Source: Nocardioides panacis (GTDB taxonomy: Bacteria > Actinomycetota > Actinomycetes > Propionibacteriales > Nocardioidaceae). Taken from it: 64,000 nucleotides of DNA. Positions within the stretch are counted from its first letter, which is position 1. Every line of letters starts with the position of its first letter. The DNA is taken from positions 3,720,001 to 3,784,000 of the forward strand of contig NZ_CP077062.1 in assembly GCF_019039255.1 (NCBI RefSeq), in the 5' to 3' direction. Of the stretch, positions 140 to 25,664 are shown in pieces. A program made the position numbers and the translations under genes. The notes beneath the pieces were generated by a model. That model had not been told where the DNA came from and did no database searches. It saw only the letters and a list, made by a program, of their open reading frames with translations.

Positions 140-2860
140 TCATCTGGCGGTCCGCTTCCAGAGGTCCGGGTAGGCGTGGTCGGCGATGACGGAGGCCACG
201 GAGCTGGGATGCCACCGCGTTCCCCGTGGCGTGCGGTAGTCCTGCGAGTTGAGTGCGGCGGCAATGGTGCGCAGGGACGCCCCTTCCCGGTGCAGGCGAA
301 GGAGCAGCATCAGGCCGTGCTCCCGGGTCGCACGAGATCCCGCGGCACGTGCTGGCGTGTCCGCGCGGGCGGGGGCCTGCACGTCGAACTGCTCGCCCGA
401 CGAGGACAGGACCTGGCTCAGGTCTGGAAGACTCAGCGGCTTGCTCCAGAGGTAGCCCTGGGCGGCGTGACAGTCGAGGCGCTGCAGCAGGTCGAGCTGC
501 TCGTTGGTCTCGACCCCTTCCGCGATGGCCAGCACACCCATCGCCCGGCAGAGGTCGACGACGCTGGCGCAGATCGCGAGATCGTCGGCCTCGGTGGTGA
601 CATTCCCCACGAAGCGGCGATCGATCTTGAGTCGAGCGACCGGCAGCGCCTGGAGGCGGGACAAGCCGCTGTAGCCGGTGCCGAAGTCGTCCAGGGAGAC
701 GCTGAAGCCCTTCGCCACGATGCCCTGGAGGATGGCCGCCGCTTCCTCGGGATCACCGATGACGGCGGTCTCGGTCACCTCGAGAGCCACGCACGTGGCC
801 GGCAGCCCGGACATCCAGACGGCCTCGTCCACGGCAGCCTGGAGATCCCCCTGGGTGAGGTGCAGGGCCGAGATGTTGACGGACACGTACACGTCCTCGG
901 CGACCAGGTCGAGGGTTCGCAGCCGAGCGAGGTCGGCGGTGGCCCGCTGCAGGACCCACCGGTCGAGCTGACAGGCGAGGCCGCACTGCTCGGCGACCGA
1001 GACGAAGACCTCGGGGGAGATCGAGCCCTTGTCCGGGTGGCGCCACCGGGCGAGCGCTTCCACGCCGAGGAGACGGCCGGTGCTCAGCTCGACGATGGGC
1101 TGGTAGTGCAGCTCGAGAACGTCTTGGTCCAAGGCCTTCGCGAGGTCGACCGACAGCTCGAACCTCGCGCGCGCTTCTCCGGTGCGACCGGGGTCGAACA
1201 CCTCGACGTTGCCCGCGCCGCGGCGCTTGGCGGCATGCATCGCGGCCCCCGCAGCTCCCAACAGCTCGGTGGTCGCACAGTCGTCGGAGGAGGTCGCGAC
1301 CCCTCCGCTCACCGTGATCCGCACCTCATGGCCCTGCACGTCGAACGGTTCCCGAAGAGCCGTCATCACGCGTTCGGCCAGCTCCATGCAGTCGTCGGCG
1401 GGCACGTTCTCGGTGAGGACCACGAACTCGTCCCCTCCGCCGCGCGCGACCGTCTCCCCCGGGCGGGCGCAGCGCTGGACACGTTTCGCGAGCTGCACGA
1501 GAAGCTCATCCCCGGCCGCGTGCCCGAACGACTCGTTGACGAGGGCGAAGCCGTCCACGTCGAAGGCCATCACGGTCACGGTCGCCGCGGCGTCGCCCTG
1601 GTGCCGCTCGACCGCCTGCGAGATCCGGTCATGGAGCAACGTGCGGTTGGCGAGACCGGTGAGCTCGTCGTGCAGGGCCCGCCCGCGCAGCACAGCTTCG
1701 CTGTGCTTCATCTCGGTGATGTCGGAGAGCATGGTGAGTCGTGCGACGTAGGCGCCGGTGGCGTCCGTGAGGGGGCTGCTGGTGGCCCGGAACCATCGCT
1801 CCCGCCCGTCCGGGTGGGGGTAACGGAGCTCGTACTCCTCCGTGCCCTGGAACTCAGCGTCCCCCAGACGGGGCAGCAGCGCACTTCCCTCGTCCGGGCC
1901 GAACAGATCGGTGGGACCGCGGGTGTAGAGCTCCTCGAAGGTGCAACCGGTCATGTCCGCCACCTTCTGGTTGACGTAGGTCGTCCGGCCCTGCGGGCTG
2001 GCGACCCAGATCCCTTCTTGCGCGGTCTCCACGATGGCGCGGTACCGCTCCTCGCTCTCGCGGAGGGCAAGTGACGCCTCGACGCGGGCGGTCACGTCGC
2101 GCAGGTTGACGACGATGCCCCCGATCGCGGGCTCGTCGATCTTGTTGCTGATCCACGACTCGACCCAACGGAAGCCACCTTCTGCATGTCGGTGCCGGTA
2201 CACCAGGGAGACCGGTGTCTCGGGGCTCTCCTGCACGCGCACGAACGCGTCCTGCACGTCCTGCCGGTCCTCGGGATGCACGAAGTCGAAGCCGGCGGAA
2301 CCCAGGACGTCCTCGGGCGCGAAGCCGAACTGGACCACCGTCGCGTTGGCGTAGAGGACCGTGCCGTCGGGTGCGTTCACCACGGCGATGTCAGAGGCGC
2401 GTTCGAGCAGGGCCCGGAAGAACAGCTCTCGCTCCTTCAGCGCCGACTCGGCCTGCCTCTGCGCGCTGAGGTCGACGACGAAGGAGGCGATGCTGTGCGG
2501 CCGGCCCTCGTCGTCGGCAAGCAAGGAGGCGATGAGCCGCGCCGGAACCGGGGTGCCGTCCGGGCGTTCGTAGACGCGTTCGTACTCCAGGTCGTGCGTC
2601 GACGGGTCGTGCAGCAGCTCCTGGGCACGGCTGGGCGGACACGTCGGGTGCGCGAGCTCGTCGACGTGCATGCCCAGCAGCTCTTCGGACGTGCGGCCGA
2701 GCAGGTCGCACATGGCGCCGTTGACGGCAGTGAGGCGCAGGTCGAGATCGGTCAGGGCCTGCGCGAGTGAGGACTGCTCGAAGCGGGCCCGGAAGTGCTT
2801 CTGGCTCCAACTCGCACCTGCGGAAGTCGCGTGGCAGCAGGCCACACGTGGCGTGGTCAT
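140..2860 (-). CDS. PAS-GGDEF-EAL cyclic-di-GMP turnover protein with resolvase-like C-terminal tail
   Basis: A 906-aa bifunctional diguanylate cyclase/phosphodiesterase candidate. Three PAS-type sensor domains fill roughly residues 25-390. The GGDEF domain (about 405-560) keeps an intact GGDEF signature (ARGGGDEFVVL), but the inhibitory I-site RxxD reads RPGE. The EAL domain (about 570-815) keeps its catalytic set: EALARW, SVNIS, EVTET, DDFGTGYS, the KIDR lysine, AEGVE and QGYLW. The last ~57 residues (LRTIAAALN, TPRGTRWHPSSV) resemble the small DNA-binding segment of large serine recombinases, which is unusual here. The ATG at 2860 was chosen because a GAGAGGTG ribosome site precedes it; the longer open frame runs into the riboswitch. 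The protein is probably soluble, as no membrane segment is visible. A c-di-GMP riboswitch lies directly upstream, implying feedback. Whether cyclase or phosphodiesterase activity dominates cannot be read from sequence. Confidence 0.9.
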   Translation of the reverse strand: MTTPRVACCHATSAGASWSQKHFRARFEQSSLAQALTDLDLRLTAVNGAMCDLLGRTSEELLGMHVDELAHPTCPPSRAQELLHDPSTHDLEYERVYERPDGTPVPARLIASLLADDEGRPHSIASFVVDLSAQRQAESALKERELFFRALLERASDIAVVNAPDGTVLYANATVVQFGFAPEDVLGSAGFDFVHPEDRQDVQDAFVRVQESPETPVSLVYRHRHAEGGFRWVESWISNKIDEPAIGGIVVNLRDVTARVEASLALRESEERYRAIVETAQEGIWVASPQGRTTYVNQKVADMTGCTFEELYTRGPTDLFGPDEGSALLPRLGDAEFQGTEEYELRYPHPDGRERWFRATSSPLTDATGAYVARLTMLSDITEMKHSEAVLRGRALHDELTGLANRTLLHDRISQAVERHQGDAAATVTVMAFDVDGFALVNESFGHAAGDELLVQLAKRVQRCARPGETVARGGGDEFVVLTENVPADDCMELAERVMTALREPFDVQGHEVRITVSGGVATSSDDCATTELLGAAGAAMHAAKRRGAGNVEVFDPGRTGEARARFELSVDLAKALDQDVLELHYQPIVELSTGRLLGVEALARWRHPDKGSISPEVFVSVAEQCGLACQLDRWVLQRATADLARLRTLDLVAEDVYVSVNISALHLTQGDLQAAVDEAVWMSGLPATCVALEVTETAVIGDPEEAAAILQGIVAKGFSVSLDDFGTGYSGLSRLQALPVARLKIDRRFVGNVTTEADDLAICASVVDLCRAMGVLAIAEGVETNEQLDLLQRLDCHAAQGYLWSKPLSLPDLSQVLSSSGEQFDVQAPARADTPARAAGSRATREHGLMLLLRLHREGASLRTIAAALNSQDYRTPRGTRWHPSSVASVIADHAYPDLWKRTAR

Positions 2861-2873
2861 CTCGGTACACCTC

Positions 2874-2952
2874 TCGGTTCGGTAGCCCGGCTGACCGAGG
2901 CGGTCCCGTGGCTTTGCGTCCCCGCCTTGCAACGGGTTTGCCCTTCTCGTCG
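2874..2952 (-). promoter_or_regulatory. Cyclic-di-GMP-I (GEMM) riboswitch 1
   Basis: On the minus strand the element reads AGGGCAAACC, a stem closed by a GCAA tetraloop, GGGACGCAAAGCCACGGG, a second stem (GACC/GGUC), then GGGCUACCGA. These are the conserved blocks of the GEMM-I aptamer. The position equivalent to the ligand-reading G of the Vc2 aptamer (second G of AGGGC) is G, favouring c-di-GMP over cGAMP. The aptamer ends only a few bases before the AGAGGTG ribosome site of the GGDEF-EAL gene starting at 2860, so control of translation initiation is likely. Comparison with the copies at 6708 and 24331 shows covarying stems and GNRA loops of different sequence. Confidence 0.9.
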
Positions 2953-3102: not shown

Positions 3103-4194
3103 TCACCCACGAGTCAACCGTCGAGCGTTAAGCGGGGCTAGCCGATGAACGCACGATCCTGTCCGATCCGCGCACCGCGGGGCTTTCCGGACTGCGAACG
3201 TCGTGCCCGAACCTCGTTGCAGTGTCGTCGACGGCGTCTCACCGACGAGGCGTCGATATGCGGACGAGAAGCGACCCAGGTGCGTGAACCCCAGGTGGTA
3301 GGCCACGGCTCCTACAGTCGTCGACCCCGGAGCGGCCCGGAACAGCGCGTCGTGCGCTCTGCTGAGGCGCACCCGTCGCAGATATGCCATCGGGGGGACG
3401 CCCAACTCATTGGCGAAGCGTTTCTGCAACGTGCGCACGCTGACGTGGACCCGCCGAGCAAGCTCGGGGGTCGACCAGTCCCGTTCCGGATGTTCCTCCA
3501 ACAGAGTTCTCGCGTGCCGGATTGTTCGCGACGACGCACTCGCGCCGGCGTCAAGCACGTCACCACTGAAGTCGTGGGGATGGCCGACCAGCAGCCCGTC
3601 GAGGATCAAGCGCTCAAGCTGTCGACCCGTGGTGGGGTGGCTGGCAAGCCCAGGTCCCGTCTCGAACTCCTGGAGGACGATGTTCAACGTCTCGCGCCAT
3701 CCACGTGCTGCCGGCGAGGACAGGTCCATCACGGGTCCGAACGAGACAGGACTGGACACCGTCCTGCCAAGCAGTTGTTCGAGCTCTGTCTCCAGCGACC
3801 GCCGCGGGATCATGAGGCACAGCTGGGTGCACCCCTCCAACCAGGTGATCTCGGCCGGGCGATCCGGCGGGAAGACGCCTGCCTGCCCCGGTTCGGCGCC
3901 TCGCCTCGGACCGGTCCCCATGCGGGAGACGGCCCGCCCGCGCACCGGGACGTTGACGTGGTAGTGCGTCGCGTCGGCAGTGGTGAGGCGGACGTCGGCG
4001 CCGTCGGACAACCGGCCCACGGTGGTCGAGCCGACCTTGACTACGTCGAGCTGCATGTCGATCGTCGCAGCCTCGAGCGGCTCGACGCGATTCGGCAGGT
4101 AGAACTCCGCGAGGCGCAGTTCCGCTTCGTGCTTGTCCCGCGTGCGCACGACGGTCGCTGTCGACGGCTCCCGCCGTCCAAGGGTCGAAGCCAC
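3103..4194 (-). CDS. AraC-family transcriptional regulator (paralogue 1)
   Basis: A 363-aa regulator with an N-terminal AraC_binding_2-type sensor half and a C-terminal double helix-turn-helix (TPELARRVHVSVRTLQKRF; then AVAYHLGFTHLGRFSSAYRR and the GETPS end typical of AraC proteins). It is clearly paralogous to the proteins at 19125 and 24687, sharing the VRTRD-HEAE-YLP start and the LILDGLLVGHPH segment. The GTG at 4194 was chosen because GGGGGTGA precedes it and its N-terminus aligns with the paralogues; an in-frame extension to 4344 exists but has no paralogue support. It lies upstream of riboswitch 1 and the GGDEF-EAL gene on the same strand, the order also seen at 21.9-25.7 kb. Regulation of that gene is inferred from position only; the effector is unknown. 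Confidence 0.85.
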   Translation of the reverse strand: MASTLGRREPSTATVVRTRDKHEAELRLAEFYLPNRVEPLEAATIDMQLDVVKVGSTTVGRLSDGADVRLTTADATHYHVNVPVRGRAVSRMGTGPRRGAEPGQAGVFPPDRPAEITWLEGCTQLCLMIPRRSLETELEQLLGRTVSSPVSFGPVMDLSSPAARGWRETLNIVLQEFETGPGLASHPTTGRQLERLILDGLLVGHPHDFSGDVLDAGASASSRTIRHARTLLEEHPERDWSTPELARRVHVSVRTLQKRFANELGVPPMAYLRRVRLSRAHDALFRAAPGSTTVGAVAYHLGFTHLGRFSSAYRRLVGETPSTTLQRGSGTTFAVRKAPRCADRTGSCVHRLAPLNARRLTRG

Positions 4195-4412
4195 AGTGTC
4201 ACCCCCGCCAGTGCTCGCGGCCGCGCGCCCGCTCAGCGGCACCCAGGGTAGGCACGCTGTCAAGTCGGTCGGTTCCGCCGCACCGAGCCGGTCCATGATC
4301 CGACTCAGATGCTGTGCGGCTGATGCGCTCGACGGCCACGACACGGAGTGCGAGCAGGACGAGGTTGATGACGATGCGGGAGCAACCGGGCCGCGCGGCG
4401 TCTGGCGGGCCG

Positions 4413-4979
4413 CTACGACACAGAGTGGGTGAGGGTGCCCACGTAGACACCGGCGGCCATGTTGGCGGCGACCCTCACGTCGATGGTGGGGTTCCAGGTC
4501 GCGGTGTTGTCGCCCTCGATGCCCGTGGCGGTCACCACCGGCGACACGCCGCTCAAGGTGACCGGGTCGTTGGCGGCGTAGGTCGCGGTGCCGACTTTGG
4601 TGATCGGGCCTGCGGTGTAGCCGACGAAGCCTGCTCCGATGGCCGGCCCGGAAGGCGGGGTGAAGGCCGTCGAGATCACCGTTGCCGTCCAGCCCGCGCC
4701 GGCCGGCGCCCCGCGTGAGTCGATAACCTGCACCTGGCCGAGCTGCCCGCTGATCGTGACCGCTCCGACGATGTTGGACTTCGTGCCGAGGTTGCCGGCG
4801 TCACCGGGGGCACTGATGGACAACCCCCCGCCCTGCAGTGTCACCGTGGCGCTGCTGACCGCTGTCTGGTCGGCGACCGCGGGAGCGTTGGCGCCGAGGC
4901 CGACGCTTATGGGCGCGATCAGGCAGGCGGCCAGGAACGGAACAAGAAGTGCAGGCGGGACGAGCAGGCGGCGTTGCAT
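4413..4979 (-). CDS. Secreted WxL-like surface protein (second copy in operon)
   Basis: A 188-aa exported protein. A signal peptide is clear (MQRRLLVPPALLVPFLAAC then a hydrophobic run to about residue 35). The mature part is a single beta-rich domain with VIDSRG followed by GAGWTATVISTAF. This matches the D-[TS]-RG...GW...T-x-F core of WxL-type cell-wall-binding domains, although the Leu of W-x-L is absent. It pairs with the 173-aa paralogue at 6088; a DUF916-like membrane protein lies between them. The ATG at 4979 has GAAGGG upstream. It is the last gene of an operon whose leader carries riboswitch 2. A role in attachment to peptidoglycan or surface assembly is known for Firmicutes WxL proteins and inferred here. 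Confidence 0.75.
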   Translation of the reverse strand: MQRRLLVPPALLVPFLAACLIAPISVGLGANAPAVADQTAVSSATVTLQGGGLSISAPGDAGNLGTKSNIVGAVTISGQLGQVQVIDSRGAPAGAGWTATVISTAFTPPSGPAIGAGFVGYTAGPITKVGTATYAANDPVTLSGVSPVVTATGIEGDNTATWNPTIDVRVAANMAAGVYVGTLTHSVS

Positions 4980-5014
4980 CAGGTGCCCTTCGGGGGGGAC
5001 GGGGTGCCGGGTGA

Positions 5015-6073
5015 TCAGGACGCGCTGTGTGCAGGTGTGCCCGCACGTCTGCGAGGCGCTTGGTGAGCTCCGCCACTGCGGCGGTGGCGGCGGCGAACCA
5101 GGAACGACCCGCCGCCGGCCAGCAGGACGAGAAGCAGGAGGCCTCCTCCGACCCACCACCACACGCTGGTGCCCTGGTCGACGGAGACGGTCTGGCCGGT
5201 CCCGGACTTCGGGAACGTCAGCGTGGCCTGGGCGGTCTCGGTGAGCAGGCCGCTGGTCACCGAGAGGTGCGCCTTCCAGGGGCCGGCGGGCAGTCGCTTG
5301 TCGAGCCGGACGGTGACCGGCTCGGTCTGCCCGAGGCCGAGGGTGGTGCCCAGGGTGACCGGGAACGGGCCGGCCGCCAGGCCGCCGGGTCCGCCGCTGA
5401 GGGTGAGCTTGCCGCGGAGGTCGAGGGCCCGTCCGCCGGTGTTGTGGATCGTCGCGGCCACCACAGGGGTTCCCGACCGGTCCCGCTCGGCGGTGAACGA
5501 CTCGACCTTGAAGGCGGAGGCGGGGACGCCGCCGGGACCGACCGACAGATAGACGCGGATGCCCACGCGGCTGACCTGGGTGACCGCGCCGCTGCCACCG
5601 GAGGTGGTCTGGGCCCACAGCACGGCGTACTGCTCGCCCGGAGCGGCGTCGGAGGGTACGTCGATCGTGACGTCGACCATCTTCTTGGCGCCGTCGGCCA
5701 GTCGCAGGCGAGGGCTGCTCACGGCGGTCCAGGTGGTGAGCTCGTTGGGGGTGTTGCCCTCGAGACCGACAAACGAGCCCTTCGCGATCTGCGCCGCGGC
5801 CGGGTAGACGGCCACGTCGGTGGGGGCGCCGGTGTCGTTTGACACCTCGATGCGCCGTTCGATCCGGGCCCCGGGCTTGACGTGGTCGATGATGTAGACC
5901 CGTGCGCGCGGGTCGTCACGGGTGGCCACCGGGGCGTCGACCAGGCGGATGCCGATGCCGGTGTGGTCGGTGCGGGCGGTGTTAACGGGGGTGCTGAGGG
6001 GGGTGCCGAAGGCACCGGCGGCCGGGACGAGTGTCCCGGCCACCAGTGCCATCAGGATGAGCAGTCGACGCAT
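5015..6073 (-). CDS. DUF916-like WxL-partner membrane protein
   Basis: A 352-aa protein with an N-terminal signal peptide (MRRLLILMALVAGTLVPAAG). A large beta-sandwich ectodomain follows, in which GIGIRLVDAP and DHVKPGARIERRIEVSN match the start of the DUF916/WxL-interacting family. One C-terminal membrane helix (WWWVGGGLLLLVLLAGGG) and an Arg-rich cytoplasmic tail (RRRHRR) end the protein. In Firmicutes such proteins sit in the membrane beside WxL proteins and tie them to peptidoglycan. Here it lies 14 nt after the 173-aa WxL-like gene and 35 nt before the 188-aa one, an arrangement that supports the call. The ribosome site is weak, so translation may be coupled to the upstream gene. Confidence 0.8.
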   Translation of the reverse strand: MRRLLILMALVAGTLVPAAGAFGTPLSTPVNTARTDHTGIGIRLVDAPVATRDDPRARVYIIDHVKPGARIERRIEVSNDTGAPTDVAVYPAAAQIAKGSFVGLEGNTPNELTTWTAVSSPRLRLADGAKKMVDVTIDVPSDAAPGEQYAVLWAQTTSGGSGAVTQVSRVGIRVYLSVGPGGVPASAFKVESFTAERDRSGTPVVAATIHNTGGRALDLRGKLTLSGGPGGLAAGPFPVTLGTTLGLGQTEPVTVRLDKRLPAGPWKAHLSVTSGLLTETAQATLTFPKSGTGQTVSVDQGTSVWWWVGGGLLLLVLLAGGGSFLVRRRHRRSGGAHQAPRRRAGTPAHSAS

Positions 6074-6087
6074 GAGGAGATCTGGCC

Positions 6088-6609
6088 TCAGACGATCGAG
6101 GTGGTGACGGTGCCCGTGTAATCGCCCGCGAGGGCGCTCGCCGGCAGCGAGACCGTCAACGTCGGGGTGTACGACGCGGTGTTGTTGCCGCTCGCCGCGG
6201 TGCCGGCTGCGACGGAAGCCACCGCCGTGATGCTGGTCGGGCCACCAGTCGTCGGGGTCACCGTGCCGGCGTGTCCGGTGGCTGCACCCGAGTCGTAGGA
6301 GACCCCGGTCGAGACCGAGCCGGCTCCGTCGACGAACGTCGTGGAAGCCGCGGACATGACCCAGCCAGCGGTGCTGCCGCGGGTGTCGCTGATGCCGACC
6401 GCGCCGAGGGAGCCGGTGACGCTCGCGGCTCCCGGGGCACCGTTGGTCAGCGGCGCGTTGGCTGCCGGGGCGACGTCGAGGCTGCCGCCCGCCAGGGTGA
6501 AGGTGGCGGTGGTGTCGCCGGAGCCGGCCGCCATGGCGGAGCCGACCGGGAGGAGCGCGAGGACCGAGCCGGCGACGGCGAGGGTCCCGAGCGTGCGAAG
6601 TGTCTTCAT
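6088..6609 (-). CDS. Secreted WxL-like surface protein (first gene of riboswitch-controlled operon)
   Basis: A 173-aa exported protein with a signal peptide (MKTLRTLGTLAVAGSVLALL, cleaved near AMAAG) and one beta-rich domain. The core ISDTRGSTAGWVMSAASTTF corresponds to the DTRG...GW...F pattern of WxL domains; the C-terminus (TLTVSLPASALAGDYTGTV) is the usual final strand. It is paralogous to the 188-aa protein at 4413. The ATG at 6609 has no close Shine-Dalgarno; AGGAAG lies about 18 nt upstream, and a small AGCT/AGCT hairpin lies between the two. The leader (6610-6785) holds a c-di-GMP riboswitch, so expression should follow c-di-GMP. Adhesion or biofilm use is inference. Confidence 0.78.
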   Translation of the reverse strand: MKTLRTLGTLAVAGSVLALLPVGSAMAAGSGDTTATFTLAGGSLDVAPAANAPLTNGAPGAASVTGSLGAVGISDTRGSTAGWVMSAASTTFVDGAGSVSTGVSYDSGAATGHAGTVTPTTGGPTSITAVASVAAGTAASGNNTASYTPTLTVSLPASALAGDYTGTVTTSIV

Positions 6610-6707
6610 GAGGTGAGCTGTCCAGCTTCCTGTGTGACGGCCCTCGCACCGCAGCCTGGAGACCGCCCCGGTAGGAGACACCGGAACGCGCTGAGGGACG
6701 AGGAACC

Positions 6708-6785
6708 TGTTCGGTAGCCCGGCTGACCCGGACGGGCCCCGTGGCTTTGCGTCCCCGACTCACATCGGGTTTGCCGTTTCGCGCT
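6708..6785 (-). promoter_or_regulatory. Cyclic-di-GMP-I (GEMM) riboswitch 2, upstream of WxL operon
   Basis: Minus-strand blocks ACGGCAAACC, a stem capped by GUGA, GGGGACGCAAAGCCACGGG, a GGCCC/GGGUC stem and GCCGGGCUACCGA match the GEMM-I consensus. The stems differ in sequence from riboswitch 1 but pair equally well, which is covariation support. About 100 nt separate the aptamer from the ATG at 6609, leaving room for a distinct expression platform, unlike riboswitches 1 and 3, which abut the ribosome site. The ligand-reading G is kept. Confidence 0.9.
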
Positions 6786-7109
6786 GGCACCGGACATCCG
6801 ATCCGCTGCCAGGATCTGGAGGGCAACCTGCCGCTTCCTCGTCTCTGCCACCAGCATCGGCACCCCTCTCCGCTGCGGATTGATGGTCGTTGCCCACAAC
6901 CCCCCAAACCGACCCCCTGAGAACTGGTCACGACGTGGTCCGGAGGCCGTGGGAACCGGTCGCGGCGTCGTCGCCGACCCGGTGAGGACTAGTCCTGAAC
7001 CAGTCTCCCGCCGCCCGACCGTTCCTCTTGCTTCCGGCGCACGGTGCTCCCACACTCGCACCATGACGCAGAGGGGTCGGAACCATCGGCGCAGCCCGGC
7101 TGCCCTCCC
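6786..7109. other. Intergenic region between riboswitch 2 and the membrane protein gene
   Basis: No convincing gene on either strand. It should hold the promoter of the WxL operon (minus) and that of the gene at 7110 (plus). Visible items are a perfect 12-bp palindrome AGGACTAGTCCT at 6985-6996 and GAACTGGTCAC at 6921-6931, which resembles GAACTAGTCAC at 3037-3047 upstream of riboswitch 1. Confidence 0.4.
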
Positions 7110-21878: not shown

Positions 21879-24318
21879 TCAGGCACCTCGAGCGAGCCAG
21901 GTCAGGAGAGCTTCCTTGTTCATCGGCCTGCCCCAGAGATATCCCTGGCCGGAGGGGCATCCCAGCTCCAGGAGCATGTCGTGCTGCGCCTGCGTCTCGA
22001 CACCTTCTGCGATCGCCTGGATGCCGAGGTCGTGGCACAGGGTGACGACGCTCGCGCAGATGGTGCGGTCGAGCTCCCCCTCGGCGGCGTCGACGACGAA
22101 GGACCGATCGATCTTCACCCTCGAGACGGGCAGCCGGCGCAGGTAGGCCAGGCTGCTGTACCCCGTGCCGAAGTCGTCCAGCGCCACACCGAAGCCGTCG
22201 TCGGCGAGGCGCCTCAGCACGGCCGAGGCACTCTCGGGGTCCGCCATCACCGCGGTCTCCGTGACCTCCAGACCCAAGCAGCTGGGAGGGAGACCGGCCA
22301 ACCAAGCGGCCTCGCTCACCGCAGTCCACAAGTCACCCCCGGTGAGGTGGAGCGCCGATACGTTGACCGACACGTACACGTCGGGACGCACATGACCCCC
22401 CGCCCGCAGGTCGGAGAGGTCGGCCGTTGCCCTCCGCAGCACCCACCGGTCCAGGCTTCGGACGAACCCGCCCTGCTCGGCGATCGACACGAAGAGGTCG
22501 GGACTGACGAAACCACGGACCGGGTGGTTCCAGCGTGCCAGGGCCTCCATGCCCAGCAGTCGACCGGTCGCGATCTCCACGATGGGTTGGTACCAGAGCT
22601 CCAGCTGCTCCTCGGAGAGCGCCGACCGCAGCTCGACGTTGAGGTCGAACCTGGTTCGCGCCTCGGCCGCGAGCGACCCGTCGAACATCTGGGTCCCGCC
22701 GTCCCCACGGCGCTTGGCCACGTACATCGCCGCGTCGGCTGCCTGGAGCAGCTCCTCGGGTCGACACACCGCGGAGCTCGCGATGCCCACGCTGGCGGAG
22801 ACGTGCACCGGGCGTCCCTCGATGTCGAAGGGGTCGTCGAGCACGGCCAGCATCCGGCTGGCCAGGGCGTGTGCCTGGGCCGCCGTGAGGCCCTCGGCGA
22901 GAACGACGAACTCGTCACCCCCGAACCGTGCCACCGTCTCGCCCGGAAGCGAGGCCGCTCTCAGTCTCCCGGCCAGCTGACACAGCAGCTGGTCCCCTGC
23001 GGCGTGACCTACGGAGTCGTTGACGAGCTTGAACTGGTCCACGTCGAGGAACACCACGACGACGCTGTCGGTGACCCCCCGCGTGTGGCGCTCCTTCGCC
23101 TGCTCCAGGCGGTCCTGCAGCAGGGTCCGGTTCGGGAGGCGCGTGAGGTTGTCGTAGAGGGCCTGGCGCCGCAGCGCTCGCTCCACCCGTTTCATCTCGG
23201 TGATGTCGGAGACCATGCCGAGTGACCCGACGAACTCCCCGTCGGAGTCCCACAACGGGCTGCCGTGCACCTGGAGGCATCGCGACGTGCCGTCCGGGTG
23301 CCGGAGGTGGAGCTCGTACTCCTCCGCCCCGGCGGTCCGGCGGGCGAGGAGCCGGCGGCTCAGCGAGGTGGCGTCCTCGACGTCGAGGAGATCGAGGACC
23401 CCTCGGGCATAGAGCTCCTCGATCGGGTGGCCGACGATGTCGGCCATCTTCTGGTTGACGTACACGGTGCGCCCTTGCGGGTTGACGAGCCAGATGCCTT
23501 CCTGCGCGGTCTCGACGATGACGCGGTAGCGCTCCTGACTCTCCTGCAGGGCCCGGTCGGACTCGACGCGGGACGTGACGTCGCGCAGGTTGATGACGAT
23601 CCCCCCCGATCTGCGGGTCCTCGATCTTGTTGCTCAGCCACGCTTCGACCCACCGGCACGCGCCGCTGGCATCCTGGTGGCGGTAGACGAGCGACACGGC
23701 CTCTTCCGGCTGCCTCTGAACCTGGGCGAAGGCTGCCTCCACGAGGTGTCGGTCCTCGGGATGGGCGAAGTCGAGTCCCTGCCGGCCGAGCACCTGGTCC
23801 GGGGTGTAACCGAAGGAGTTGACCGAAGTCTCCGCGTGCACAACGGTCCCGTCCGGCGCGCTGACCACGGCCACGTCGGTCGCCCGCTCCAGAAGGGCCT
23901 GGAACAGCGACTCCCGGCACCGCAGCGCCTCCTCGGCGCGTCTCTGGTCAGTGAGGTCGACGACGAACGCCGCGATGCTCTGGGGCGACCCGTCCTTGTC
24001 GCGCACCAGCGTCGCGAACAGCCGCGCCGGCACCCGGATCCCGTCGGGACGCTGGTAGACACGCTCGTACTCCAGCATGCCGCTGGCATCTTCCTCGAGA
24101 AGCTCACGGGCCCGACTTGCCGGTCCGTCCCGGTGCGTGAGGGTGTCGACGTGCACCCCGATCAGTTCCTCCGCAGAGCTGCCGAGAAGCCTGCTCATCG
24201 CGGCGTTCACCATGACGAGACGCAGGTCGAGACCGGTGATCGCCTGAGGTAGGTGGGACTGCTCGAAACGAGCCTGGAAGTGCAGGTCTGCGTCCAACCC
24301 GGCCTGGGGCCCACACAT
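21879..24318 (-). CDS. PAS-GGDEF-EAL cyclic-di-GMP turnover protein (paralogue 2), frame broken at a C run
   Basis: A close paralogue of the protein at 140 over three PAS domains, GGDEF (ARFGGDEFVVL, intact) and EAL (MEALARW, SVNVS, EVTET, DDFGTGYS, KIDRSF, AEGVE, GQGYLWGRP, all intact). The I-site RxxD is absent (LPGE). It lacks the resolvase-like tail of the first copy and ends with LLTWLARGA. The frame breaks inside the second PAS domain at 23601-23607, seven C where six give KIEDPQIGGIVINLRDV, as in the paralogue (five G plus C there). Corrected length is ~812 aa. ATG 24318 has AGAGAGGG, directly after riboswitch 3. The break is probably an error; phase variation at the G7 tract is a less likely alternative. 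Confidence 0.88.
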
Positions 24319-24330
24319 GTCGTTCCCTCT

Positions 24331-24408
24331 CTGTGGGTAGGCCCCGCTGACCCTCGACGGGTCCCGTGGCTCTGCGTCCCCGGCTCGCGACGGGTCTGCC
24401 GTTGCCGT
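24331..24408 (-). promoter_or_regulatory. Cyclic-di-GMP-I (GEMM) riboswitch 3
   Basis: Minus-strand blocks ACGGCAGACC, a stem with GCGA tetraloop, GGGGACGCAGAGCCACGGG, GACCC/GGGUC stem and GCGGGGCCUACCCA match GEMM-I with a few substitutions (GCAGAGCC for GCAAAGCC). The 3' end abuts the GAGAGGG ribosome site of the GGDEF-EAL gene at 24318, as in riboswitch 1. Upstream, 24409-24686 holds no gene I can see and presumably the promoter. Confidence 0.85.
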
Positions 24409-24686
24409 ACATGTGTGTCGTGGGGATCGAGCCGGAGGCCGTGACGCGGCTACGCGCCGGGTCACGGGCCGGTCGAGGTTGTCCTGCCATCTCTGGCGGG
24501 GCCCTCGCCCCTGCCTTCTCGGCAGGCTGTCCGCCCCGTGTCGGACCACCACGCGTCAGGGAGGGCGCGGTGGTCCGAGCAGAAACGTCCCGAGCTCATC
24601 GAACCAGCGACCGGGTGGGCGGGGCTAGCCGTCCTGCGCGCCGGACGGTCCGCATCGCGCGCGGGTCCTCCCACCGGCTCGGGGGC

Positions 24687-25664
24687 TCATTCGCGTCGCA
24701 GGGTCTCCGACGGAGACTCGCCGAACACGAGCCGGTAGGCAGCGGCAAAGCGTCCCAGGTGGGACACGCCCAGTCCGGAGGCCACCCTCGCGACCGTCGT
24801 CTGGGCAGAGGAGGCCTCGCGCAGCAGGTCGCGGGCCCGGCGCAGCCGGACCTGTTGCAGGTACTTCATGGGTGGCAGGCCGAGGTCCCGCGCGAACCCC
24901 TCCTGAAGAGACCGCACGCTGACATGCACGCGGACTGCGAGCGACGACGTCGACCAGGCTTCCTCAGGCTGCTCCTCCAACAGCTGTCGTGCCCGCGCCA
25001 CCGGTCCCGACGAAGGGCGCCACGTTCCCCGGTCCAGAGCCTCGCTGTAGTTGTGCGGTTGTCCGAGAAGGAGCCCGTCGACCACCAGCCTCTCCAGCTG
25101 CCTGGCCACGCGCCTCTGAGAGGCCAGCCCCGGCCCCTCCGTGAGCTCGGTCCGCACCACCTCCAGCGAGGCACGCCACCCGCGTGCCGTGGGAGTGGAC
25201 AGGTCCATCTCGCTCTCGAACACCAACGGCTTCGAGACGGAGCGGCCGAGGAGCTGCTCGAGCTCCTCCACGACCGTCTGCGCGGGAATCTTCAGGCACA
25301 GCTGCAGGCTGTCCGCGCCCCACACGATGTCGGCTGGATACCCGGGCATGAAGACGGTGGCCCGGCCAGGGACTGCGGAGGTCTCGGCACCCCTGCCCAT
25401 GCGGCTCACCACCCCACCTCGAACAGGCAGGTTGACGTGGTAGTCGGTCGCCTCGGCCGTGAGCAGCCGCGTCTGGGTGCCGAAGGAGACGAGACCGACC
25501 GTGGCCGAGTCGAGCCGCAGCGCGTCCAGACGGAGCGCGAGCGGCCCGGTGCCCAGGGGGTCGACGCAGCTGGGGAGGTACGCGTCCGCGATCATGGCCT
25601 CGGCCTCGTGCGGGTCTCTCGTCCGCACAGCACCTGCTCGACCGTCCCGCCCCTGCTTGGTCAT
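24687..25664 (-). CDS. AraC-family transcriptional regulator (paralogue 3)
   Basis: A 325-aa AraC regulator. VRTRDPHEAEAMIADAYLP starts the sensor half, CLKIPAQTVVEELEQLLGRS follows, and the C-terminal HTH reads TSSLAVRVHVSVRSLQEGF, ASGLGVSHLGRFAAAYR, GESPSETL. ATG 25664 has GAGAGG. It lies upstream of riboswitch 3 and a GGDEF-EAL gene on the same strand, exactly repeating the order at 0.1-4.2 kb, so the pair of modules looks duplicated. Control of the downstream c-di-GMP enzyme is inferred from this repeated order. Confidence 0.87.
   Translation of the reverse strand: MTKQGRDGRAGAVRTRDPHEAEAMIADAYLPSCVDPLGTGPLALRLDALRLDSATVGLVSFGTQTRLLTAEATDYHVNLPVRGGVVSRMGRGAETSAVPGRATVFMPGYPADIVWGADSLQLCLKIPAQTVVEELEQLLGRSVSKPLVFESEMDLSTPTARGWRASLEVVRTELTEGPGLASQRRVARQLERLVVDGLLLGQPHNYSEALDRGTWRPSSGPVARARQLLEEQPEEAWSTSSLAVRVHVSVRSLQEGFARDLGLPPMKYLQQVRLRRARDLLREASSAQTTVARVASGLGVSHLGRFAAAYRLVFGESPSETLRRE

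Follow-up and report, generated by a model that had tools for sequence, protein, structure and literature searches.

WxL-type surface clusters have been described mostly from Firmicutes, where WxLIP is thought to hold WxL proteins at the peptidoglycan (PMC10599100). Published WxL domains carry two Trp-x-Leu motifs, the first of which is preceded by an Asp at W-8 and an Arg at W-6 (PMC9772566), and a predicted strand of WxLIP completes the WxL sandwich (PMC10599100, 2023). Surface proteins can also be controlled by cyclic di-GMP (c-di-GMP) through riboswitches. The Bacillus thuringiensis Bc2 RNA-cap system combines a c-di-GMP-I aptamer and a transcription terminator with a collagen adhesion protein and is an ON switch (PMC4933901); in Clostridioides difficile, cbpA (PMC7423583) and CD2831 (PMC6447587) are riboswitch-controlled surface adhesins. 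Here we report a computational analysis of 64,000 nt of Nocardioides panacis DNA (NZ_CP077062.1, 3,720,001-3,784,000; hereafter the window, to which all coordinates refer), in which a c-di-GMP-I aptamer heads an operon for three proteins, P0001, P0002 and P0003. Our analysis indicated that translation of a divergent surface complex of WxL type is probably gated by c-di-GMP, often as part of a local feedback circuit. No publication pairing WxL-type clusters with c-di-GMP riboswitches was found in a literature search that most subscription papers and bioRxiv preprints lay outside.

Results

A c-di-GMP-I aptamer heads an operon for two small secreted proteins and a membrane partner

The minus strand of the window carries, in this order, a c-di-GMP-I aptamer, the genes for P0001, P0002 and P0003, a gene for an AraC-family regulator, a second aptamer and a gene for a PAS-GGDEF-EAL protein. 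The operon aptamer (6710-6785, minus strand) matched RF01051 with 64.0 bits against a gathering threshold of 35 (E 3.3e-10). It lies on the operon strand, 100 nt upstream of the first ATG, and has retained the core letters GGCAAAC, GACGCAAAGCCACGG and CAGCCGGGCU. The c-di-GMP aptamer that an earlier, sequence-only reading of this DNA had placed in the leader was therefore borne out. The WxL-type cluster behind it (4413-6609) consists of the WxLIP-like P0002 (352 aa, 5015-6073) between two small proteins, P0001 (173 aa, 6088-6609) and P0003 (188 aa, 4413-4979), all on the minus strand, with gaps of 14 nt between P0001 and P0002 and 35 nt between P0002 and P0003. The N-termini of both small proteins resemble signal peptides when judged by eye. 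The DTRG..GW..F core is present as DTRGSTAGWVMSAASTTF in P0001 and DSRGAPAGAGWTATVISTAF in P0003; both of the secreted proteins that had been claimed to flank a membrane partner were found as open reading frames (ORFs) with their cores.

P0002 has a predicted WxLIP fold

Fold comparisons identified P0002 as a WxLIP (DUF916/DUF3324) protein. The AF2 monomer model (predicted local distance difference test, pLDDT, 85.6) contains two Ig-like beta domains, with strands between residues 39 and 297, followed by a helix at residues 304-332. Foldseek placed the Enterococcus faecium WxLIP structures 9i1y and 9i25 first (E 2.8e-11 for 9i1y_A, to 1.7e-10), then Vibrio RbmA (1.8e-8) and CsuC (5.5e-8). VIA comparison gave Z 16.4 for 9i25_C (239 aligned residues, root-mean-square deviation 7.4) and Z 16.2 for a second superposition (241 residues, 7.3); these deviations from the solved WxLIP structures indicate that the angles between the domains probably differ. 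Next by VIA came PapD-like chaperones (YadV, Z 13.1; FimC and CupB2, 12.5). The DUF916-type membrane partner postulated from the sequence was thus recovered at the level of the predicted fold, together with a C-terminal helix. A PDB sequence match to 21nr ('TLP-IPT') was dropped because it consisted of repeated low-scoring stretches.

An alignment based on P0002, scanned against one genome collection, yielded 68 actinobacterial loci. In 68/68 of them, a WxL-like profile expanded from five seed sequences detected a WxL-like ORF ending 6-236 nt ahead of the P0002-like match. The Pfam WxLIP_PGBD model matched 12 of 43 P0002-like proteins at E 0.01 (best 4.4e-5), and no NCBIfam model matched more than two of the 43 members scanned.

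The small proteins P0001 and P0003 are distantly related to WxL proteins

The sequence-only reading had noted that the Leu of W-x-L is missing from both small proteins. This was correct: the first motif reads W-V-M and W-T-A. The second, C-terminal W-x-L is absent too, as the proteins end in TTSIV (P0001) and THSVS (P0003). P0001 keeps the Asp at W-8 and the Arg at W-6 (D75, R77, W83), and in P0003 the Asp/Arg pair is placed two residues further from the Trp. A survey of the fetched loci gave 124 WxL-like ORF matches, 119 of them distinct. The first motif was readable in 100 and was W-x-A in 84, with V, T, S, M or N in the remaining 16 and Leu in none. The second was readable in 107, where the Trp position held His (99), Thr (5), Gln (2) or Arg (1) and never Trp. 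Since Leu was missing throughout the 100 readable relatives, its loss marks the clade and not a single gene. Among actinobacterial matches to Pfam WxL (PF13731) over the cut-off, the rows read retain a GWSL-type first motif.

Profile-profile comparison linked this clade to WxL. Alignment A2 comprised 43 WxL-like proteins (P0001 and P0003, a single protein from each of 39 of the 68 loci, and two from the genome G311; P0003 is 31% identical to P0001 in it), and alignment A3 comprised 12 actinobacterial PF13731 matches, of which eight exceeded the cut-off. Comparison of A2 with A3 by hhalign gave 97.8% (E 1e-12), or 96.7% with six close rows only, and the control, A2 against an alignment of P0002-like (WxLIP-like) proteins, gave 1.5%. 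Support from single sequences was weak, with PF13731 matching 4/43 WxL-like proteins at E 0.01 (best 3.6e-4). P0001 and P0003 are thus remote WxL relatives and are not WxL proteins under the motif definition.

The structure prediction that the sequence-only reading had proposed as a check gave a WxLIP fold for P0002 and weak matches for P0001. The AF2 monomer model of P0001 (pLDDT 85.7) had no Foldseek match at E 0.001. Its best matches were a GH123 domain, chaperone-usher pilins and the Pyrodictium cannula protein CanA (E 0.019 upward). VIA gave Z 7.9 for 7zl4_B, 7.7 for FimG and 7.6 for CanA, a range that may reflect a common arrangement only. The WxL chain of 9i25 was absent among the 50 matches listed for the model. 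PDB searches by sequence with profiles A2, A3 and A5 returned no credible relative; transaldolases, PDB sequence matches of P0001 at E 0.024 and 0.027, are an unrelated enzyme and were dropped.

Opposite the small WxL/WxLIP pair, three Micromonospora loci (L042, L060 and L074) carry long open frames, some 1100 codons each, that include a WxL-like domain. These frames are candidates for actinobacterial large WxL proteins.

The aptamer and the WxL-type gene pair occur together in six genomes of two families

The link between riboswitch and operon recurred in five other genomes. A c-di-GMP-I match over the cut-off was present in 13/294 genomes of the family Nocardioidaceae, N. panacis included; at class level, 43/394 genomes had a match. 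The 74 aptamer matches outside N. panacis (14 from the family, 2 from the order and 58 from the class, a few of them shortened by contig ends) were followed by WxL-like and WxLIP-like genes, detected by profile, in five cases. Four belong to the family: G193, G185 and G187, which correspond to the Aeromicrobium metagenome-assembled genome loci L020, L021 and L022, and G311. The fifth, G592, belongs to another family of the same class and has an aptamer of 62.8 bits, a WxL-like gene (5.8e-40) and a WxLIP-like gene (2.5e-125); at its locus (L156, 3877-5590) the first gene is P0003-like by eye, the WxLIP-like gene follows, and the leader is of a shorter type. Searches at order and genus level gave no further WxL case. 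An aptamer was present in one of 215 genomes of the genus of G311 and in five of 49 of that of G193.

As a general feature of the group, the aptamer link did not hold: Rfam scans of the 68 loci found an aptamer in three only (L020-L022) and none in the other 65. In trees of P0002-like proteins, the five aptamer-bearing Nocardioidaceae rows and Nocardioides gansuensis form a well-supported clade, with G592 outside it, and the well-supported branches cannot be reconciled with fewer than two events of aptamer gain or loss. A second aptamer of G311 (L104; the aptamer of L094), 5.5 kb away, is intact and has a WxL-type leader. The ORF behind it is short, resembles only the start of a WxL-like gene and is apparently a remnant.

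The operon leader can form two mutually exclusive pairings

A 40-nt aptamer core was identical in six leaders from five Nocardioidaceae genomes; five of these leaders are distinct, and their flanks differ. In N. panacis, a switching segment directly 3' of the aptamer (6696-6707) can pair with a 5' arm (6835-6843; -18.1 kcal/mol) or with a platform segment (6639-6646), never with both. The platform segment lies directly 5' of a possible Shine-Dalgarno sequence, AGGAAG (6626-6631), read from the sequence and placed 16 nt before the ATG, a long spacing. All four elements are on the minus strand. Duplex energies were compared with those of 1000 base-shuffled partners and summed over the five distinct leaders. 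The summed energy was reached by 0/1000 shuffles for the upstream arm and by 1/1000 for the platform, and the best-pairing platform site directly preceded the ribosome site in 5/5 leaders. Taken singly, the upstream pairing was not stronger than shuffles in leader G311a (635/1000) and weak in G185 (172/1000), and the downstream pairing was weak in N. panacis (107/1000) and G311b (110/1000). A MAFFT alignment of the five leaders puts the switching segment in the wrong place.

No U-tract was seen by eye in the operon leader, for which no terminator scan was made. The distance from aptamer to ATG in G592 is only 18 nt, leaving no room for a terminator, and this short leader points to translational control. 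We infer that the operon leader is a c-di-GMP-I riboswitch that binds its ligand and most likely gates translation, its switching segment pairing either with the upstream arm or with the site beside the first gene's ribosome-binding site. The alternative pairings would fit a sequester/anti-sequester switch. Should ligand binding favour pairing with the upstream arm, the region downstream would be released and would mask the ribosome site (OFF); going by the pairing, the sign of the switch leans slightly towards OFF.

GGDEF and EAL genes lie near most aptamer-bearing operons

Downstream of the operon, the window encodes an AraC-family regulator (3103-4344, minus strand; Pfam AraC_binding_2 1.5e-36, HTH_18 9.2e-22) between P0003 and a 906-aa PAS-GGDEF-EAL protein (140-2860, minus strand; Pfam EAL 9e-70, GGDEF 1.6e-37, PAS), which has both motifs. 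The start of the latter was picked by eye as the ATG behind the aptamer, the open frame extending to 3028. It is preceded by the second c-di-GMP-I aptamer, of the GGC type (2877-2951, minus strand; RF03167, 67.9 bits, gathering threshold 59). The 4.9-Mb, single-contig host genome contains 33 GGDEF match stretches and three c-di-GMP-I matches, two over the cut-off, both in the window, and one below it; these aptamers precede the WxL-type operon and two GGDEF-EAL genes. A second AraC, aptamer and PAS-GGDEF-EAL module occupies 21879-25664 of the window. It has an AraC-like ORF (24687-25664), named from its likeness to the first copy, and a degenerate aptamer at about 24332-24409 (36.1 bits against a gathering threshold of 59). 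Its PAS-GGDEF-EAL gene is split over two frames, and the module therefore looks decayed.

A GGDEF and/or EAL gene lies within about 4 kb in five of the six aptamer-bearing loci and in two of the 65 aptamer-less ones (L023 and L085), nine of which were covered with less than 8 kb. The GGDEF profile was made from five sequences and the EAL profile from four, all taken from the window and loci and matching by construction; Pfam confirmed these sequences, and the GGDEF profile found an unused GGDEF protein (L097) at 3.4e-36. In N. panacis and G311 the gene lies downstream, behind the AraC gene and a histidine kinase gene, respectively; its orientation is convergent in G193 and divergent in both G185 and G187. 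Because the five loci are related and two of them are near copies, we assign no probability to this association; the gene orders differ nonetheless.

Other genes behind c-di-GMP-I aptamers

Elsewhere in the family, the genes behind such aptamers encode GGDEF, DUF1800, type IV pilin-like, fibronectin/beta-helix and hydrolase proteins and one unassigned secreted protein. DUF1800 genes follow the aptamer at L088 and L093 (genomes G067 and G015; Pfam 6.6e-97 and 7.1e-95), and L089 is alike by eye. In G127 (L095, 1590-2081), an aptamer stands before a small secreted protein without a Pfam family, whose N-terminus we take to be reminiscent of SipW-type TasA/camelysin proteins. In other Actinomycetota, the aptamer is followed by a CAP-domain gene at L124 and by type IV pilin-like genes at L096 and L119 (Pfam) and L134 (by eye).

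Discussion

We propose that c-di-GMP, sensed by the leader RNA, times the production of two small secreted proteins of the WxL clade and a membrane-anchored WxLIP partner, which together would make up a complex on the cell surface, beyond the membrane. If the Firmicutes cluster is a guide, WxLIP may hold its partners at the peptidoglycan here as well, and we infer assembly at the wall. The GGDEF-EAL gene nearby, preceded by an aptamer of its own, would place c-di-GMP feedback on an enzyme making or breaking c-di-GMP.

Several observations weigh against this proposal. The small proteins are without any W-x-L motif, and the search with WxL and DUF916 models suggested in the sequence-only reading stayed below the cut-offs: P0001 reached 17.3 bits (E 0.005) against a gathering threshold of 25 for PF13731, and P0002 13.9 against 27.3 for WxLIP_PGBD (PF06030), even though the families named were those to be expected at these positions. 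P0003 had no match to PF13731, and a WxL search across the whole genome had none at E 0.001; the WxL relation itself was recovered, as a remote one, by comparing profiles. The domain fn3_5 matches P0002-like proteins about as often as WxLIP_PGBD does (11/43), and NPCBM_assoc matches 6/43. The operon aptamer is without part of the RF01051 consensus on the P3 side (a CUAA stretch), and when the upstream arm was blocked in folding, the openness of the ribosome site shifted in differing directions between leaders. N. gansuensis (L023) keeps the genes without the aptamer, even at a loose threshold (801 bases scanned), and P0002-like matches at E 0.001 were absent from the six other genomes of the genus. 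The six aptamer-bearing loci do not give independent counts, since five of them are related and G185 and G187 are near copies. G592 lacks a GGDEF/EAL gene within the 7.35 kb covered, and its leader differs too.

The same data allow other explanations. The aptamer could be real and the operon output set mainly elsewhere, for example by the neighbouring AraC regulator, the riboswitch being minor or decaying. The absence of an aptamer from 65 of the 68 related operons, the degenerate third aptamer of the window before a split GGDEF-EAL gene, and the AraC gene adjoining the operon would fit; we nevertheless regard this as improbable, because the core letters are retained, six leaders with differing flanks share an identical 40-nt core, and the link is found outside the family too, in G592. 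It is more improbable still that the small proteins are generic secreted beta-sandwich proteins beside an Ig-type membrane protein. Their Pfam scores below the cut-off, the missing motifs and the weak fold matches agree with such a view, whereas the profile match to the PF13731 alignment beside a low control, the Asp and Arg kept at W-8 and W-6 in P0001, and the strict pairing with a WxLIP-fold gene in all 68 loci argue against it.

An unlikely explanation, to which we give somewhat more room than to these two, concerns the product of the operon. WxLIP would be a membrane-tethered chaperone, not a static peptidoglycan-binding platform, and would supply a strand to WxL subunits that are incomplete and pilin-like; these would then polymerise through their N-terminal strand into a fibre or tube by donor-strand exchange. 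In agreement with this, the nearest folds to P0002 after WxLIP were PapD-like chaperones by VIA, and RbmA followed by CsuC by Foldseek; P0001 was nearest to chaperone-usher pilins and CanA; T33 and L44 of the N-terminal segment are nearly invariant; and a WxLIP strand has been predicted to complete the WxL sandwich in PMC10599100, in whose text the words 'donor', 'chaperone' and 'pilus' do not occur. Against it, the P0001 matches, at Foldseek E of at least 0.019 and Z below 8, may mean a common arrangement only, and glycoside hydrolase domains match P0001 equally well. The wider version, in which WxL clusters, those of Firmicutes included, build donor-strand-linked surface polymers with WxLIP as a tethered PapD-like chaperone, timed by a c-di-GMP riboswitch in some actinobacteria, is a little less likely again. 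Translational gating of a WxL-type surface complex by c-di-GMP remains the explanation that we prefer.

This explanation joins two fields, WxL-type surface clusters and c-di-GMP riboswitches, and would describe a compact c-di-GMP output in Nocardioidaceae. The WxL-like/WxLIP-like pair is widespread in actinobacteria, with 68 loci in one scan, and no Pfam or NCBIfam family clearly covers the members scanned. The name-giving W-x-L motif can vanish while the WxL/WxLIP partnership persists. The chaperone-pilin likeness, if true, would change the view of how WxL clusters work.

Three kinds of known system resemble this locus. By fold, P0002 is similar to the chaperones of chaperone-usher pili (PapD, FimC, CsuC) and P0001 weakly similar to their pilins, a likeness that may be that of common Ig-type folds; unlike in those pili, there is no outer membrane, no usher is known here (no search for one was made), and the chaperone-like P0002 bears a membrane helix. 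As in Bc2, cbpA and CD2831, a c-di-GMP riboswitch precedes a surface protein, with a c-di-GMP-I aptamer as in Bc2; unlike in Bc2, the cargo is of the WxL type and the leader lacks a U-tract by eye, no terminator scan having been made. Compared with the WxL clusters of Firmicutes, the operon differs in its actinobacterial host, in the c-di-GMP aptamer in front and in the absence of W-x-L from the whole clade read. The mirror image of Firmicutes loci seen in the sequence-only reading held in part: both proteins flanking P0002 are small, and the operon has no large WxL protein, but the arrangement of a small secreted WxL-related protein beside a WxLIP-fold protein that has two domains and a C-terminal helix (PMC9772566, PMC10599100) is shared, as is the Asp/Arg pair before the first Trp (PMC9772566).

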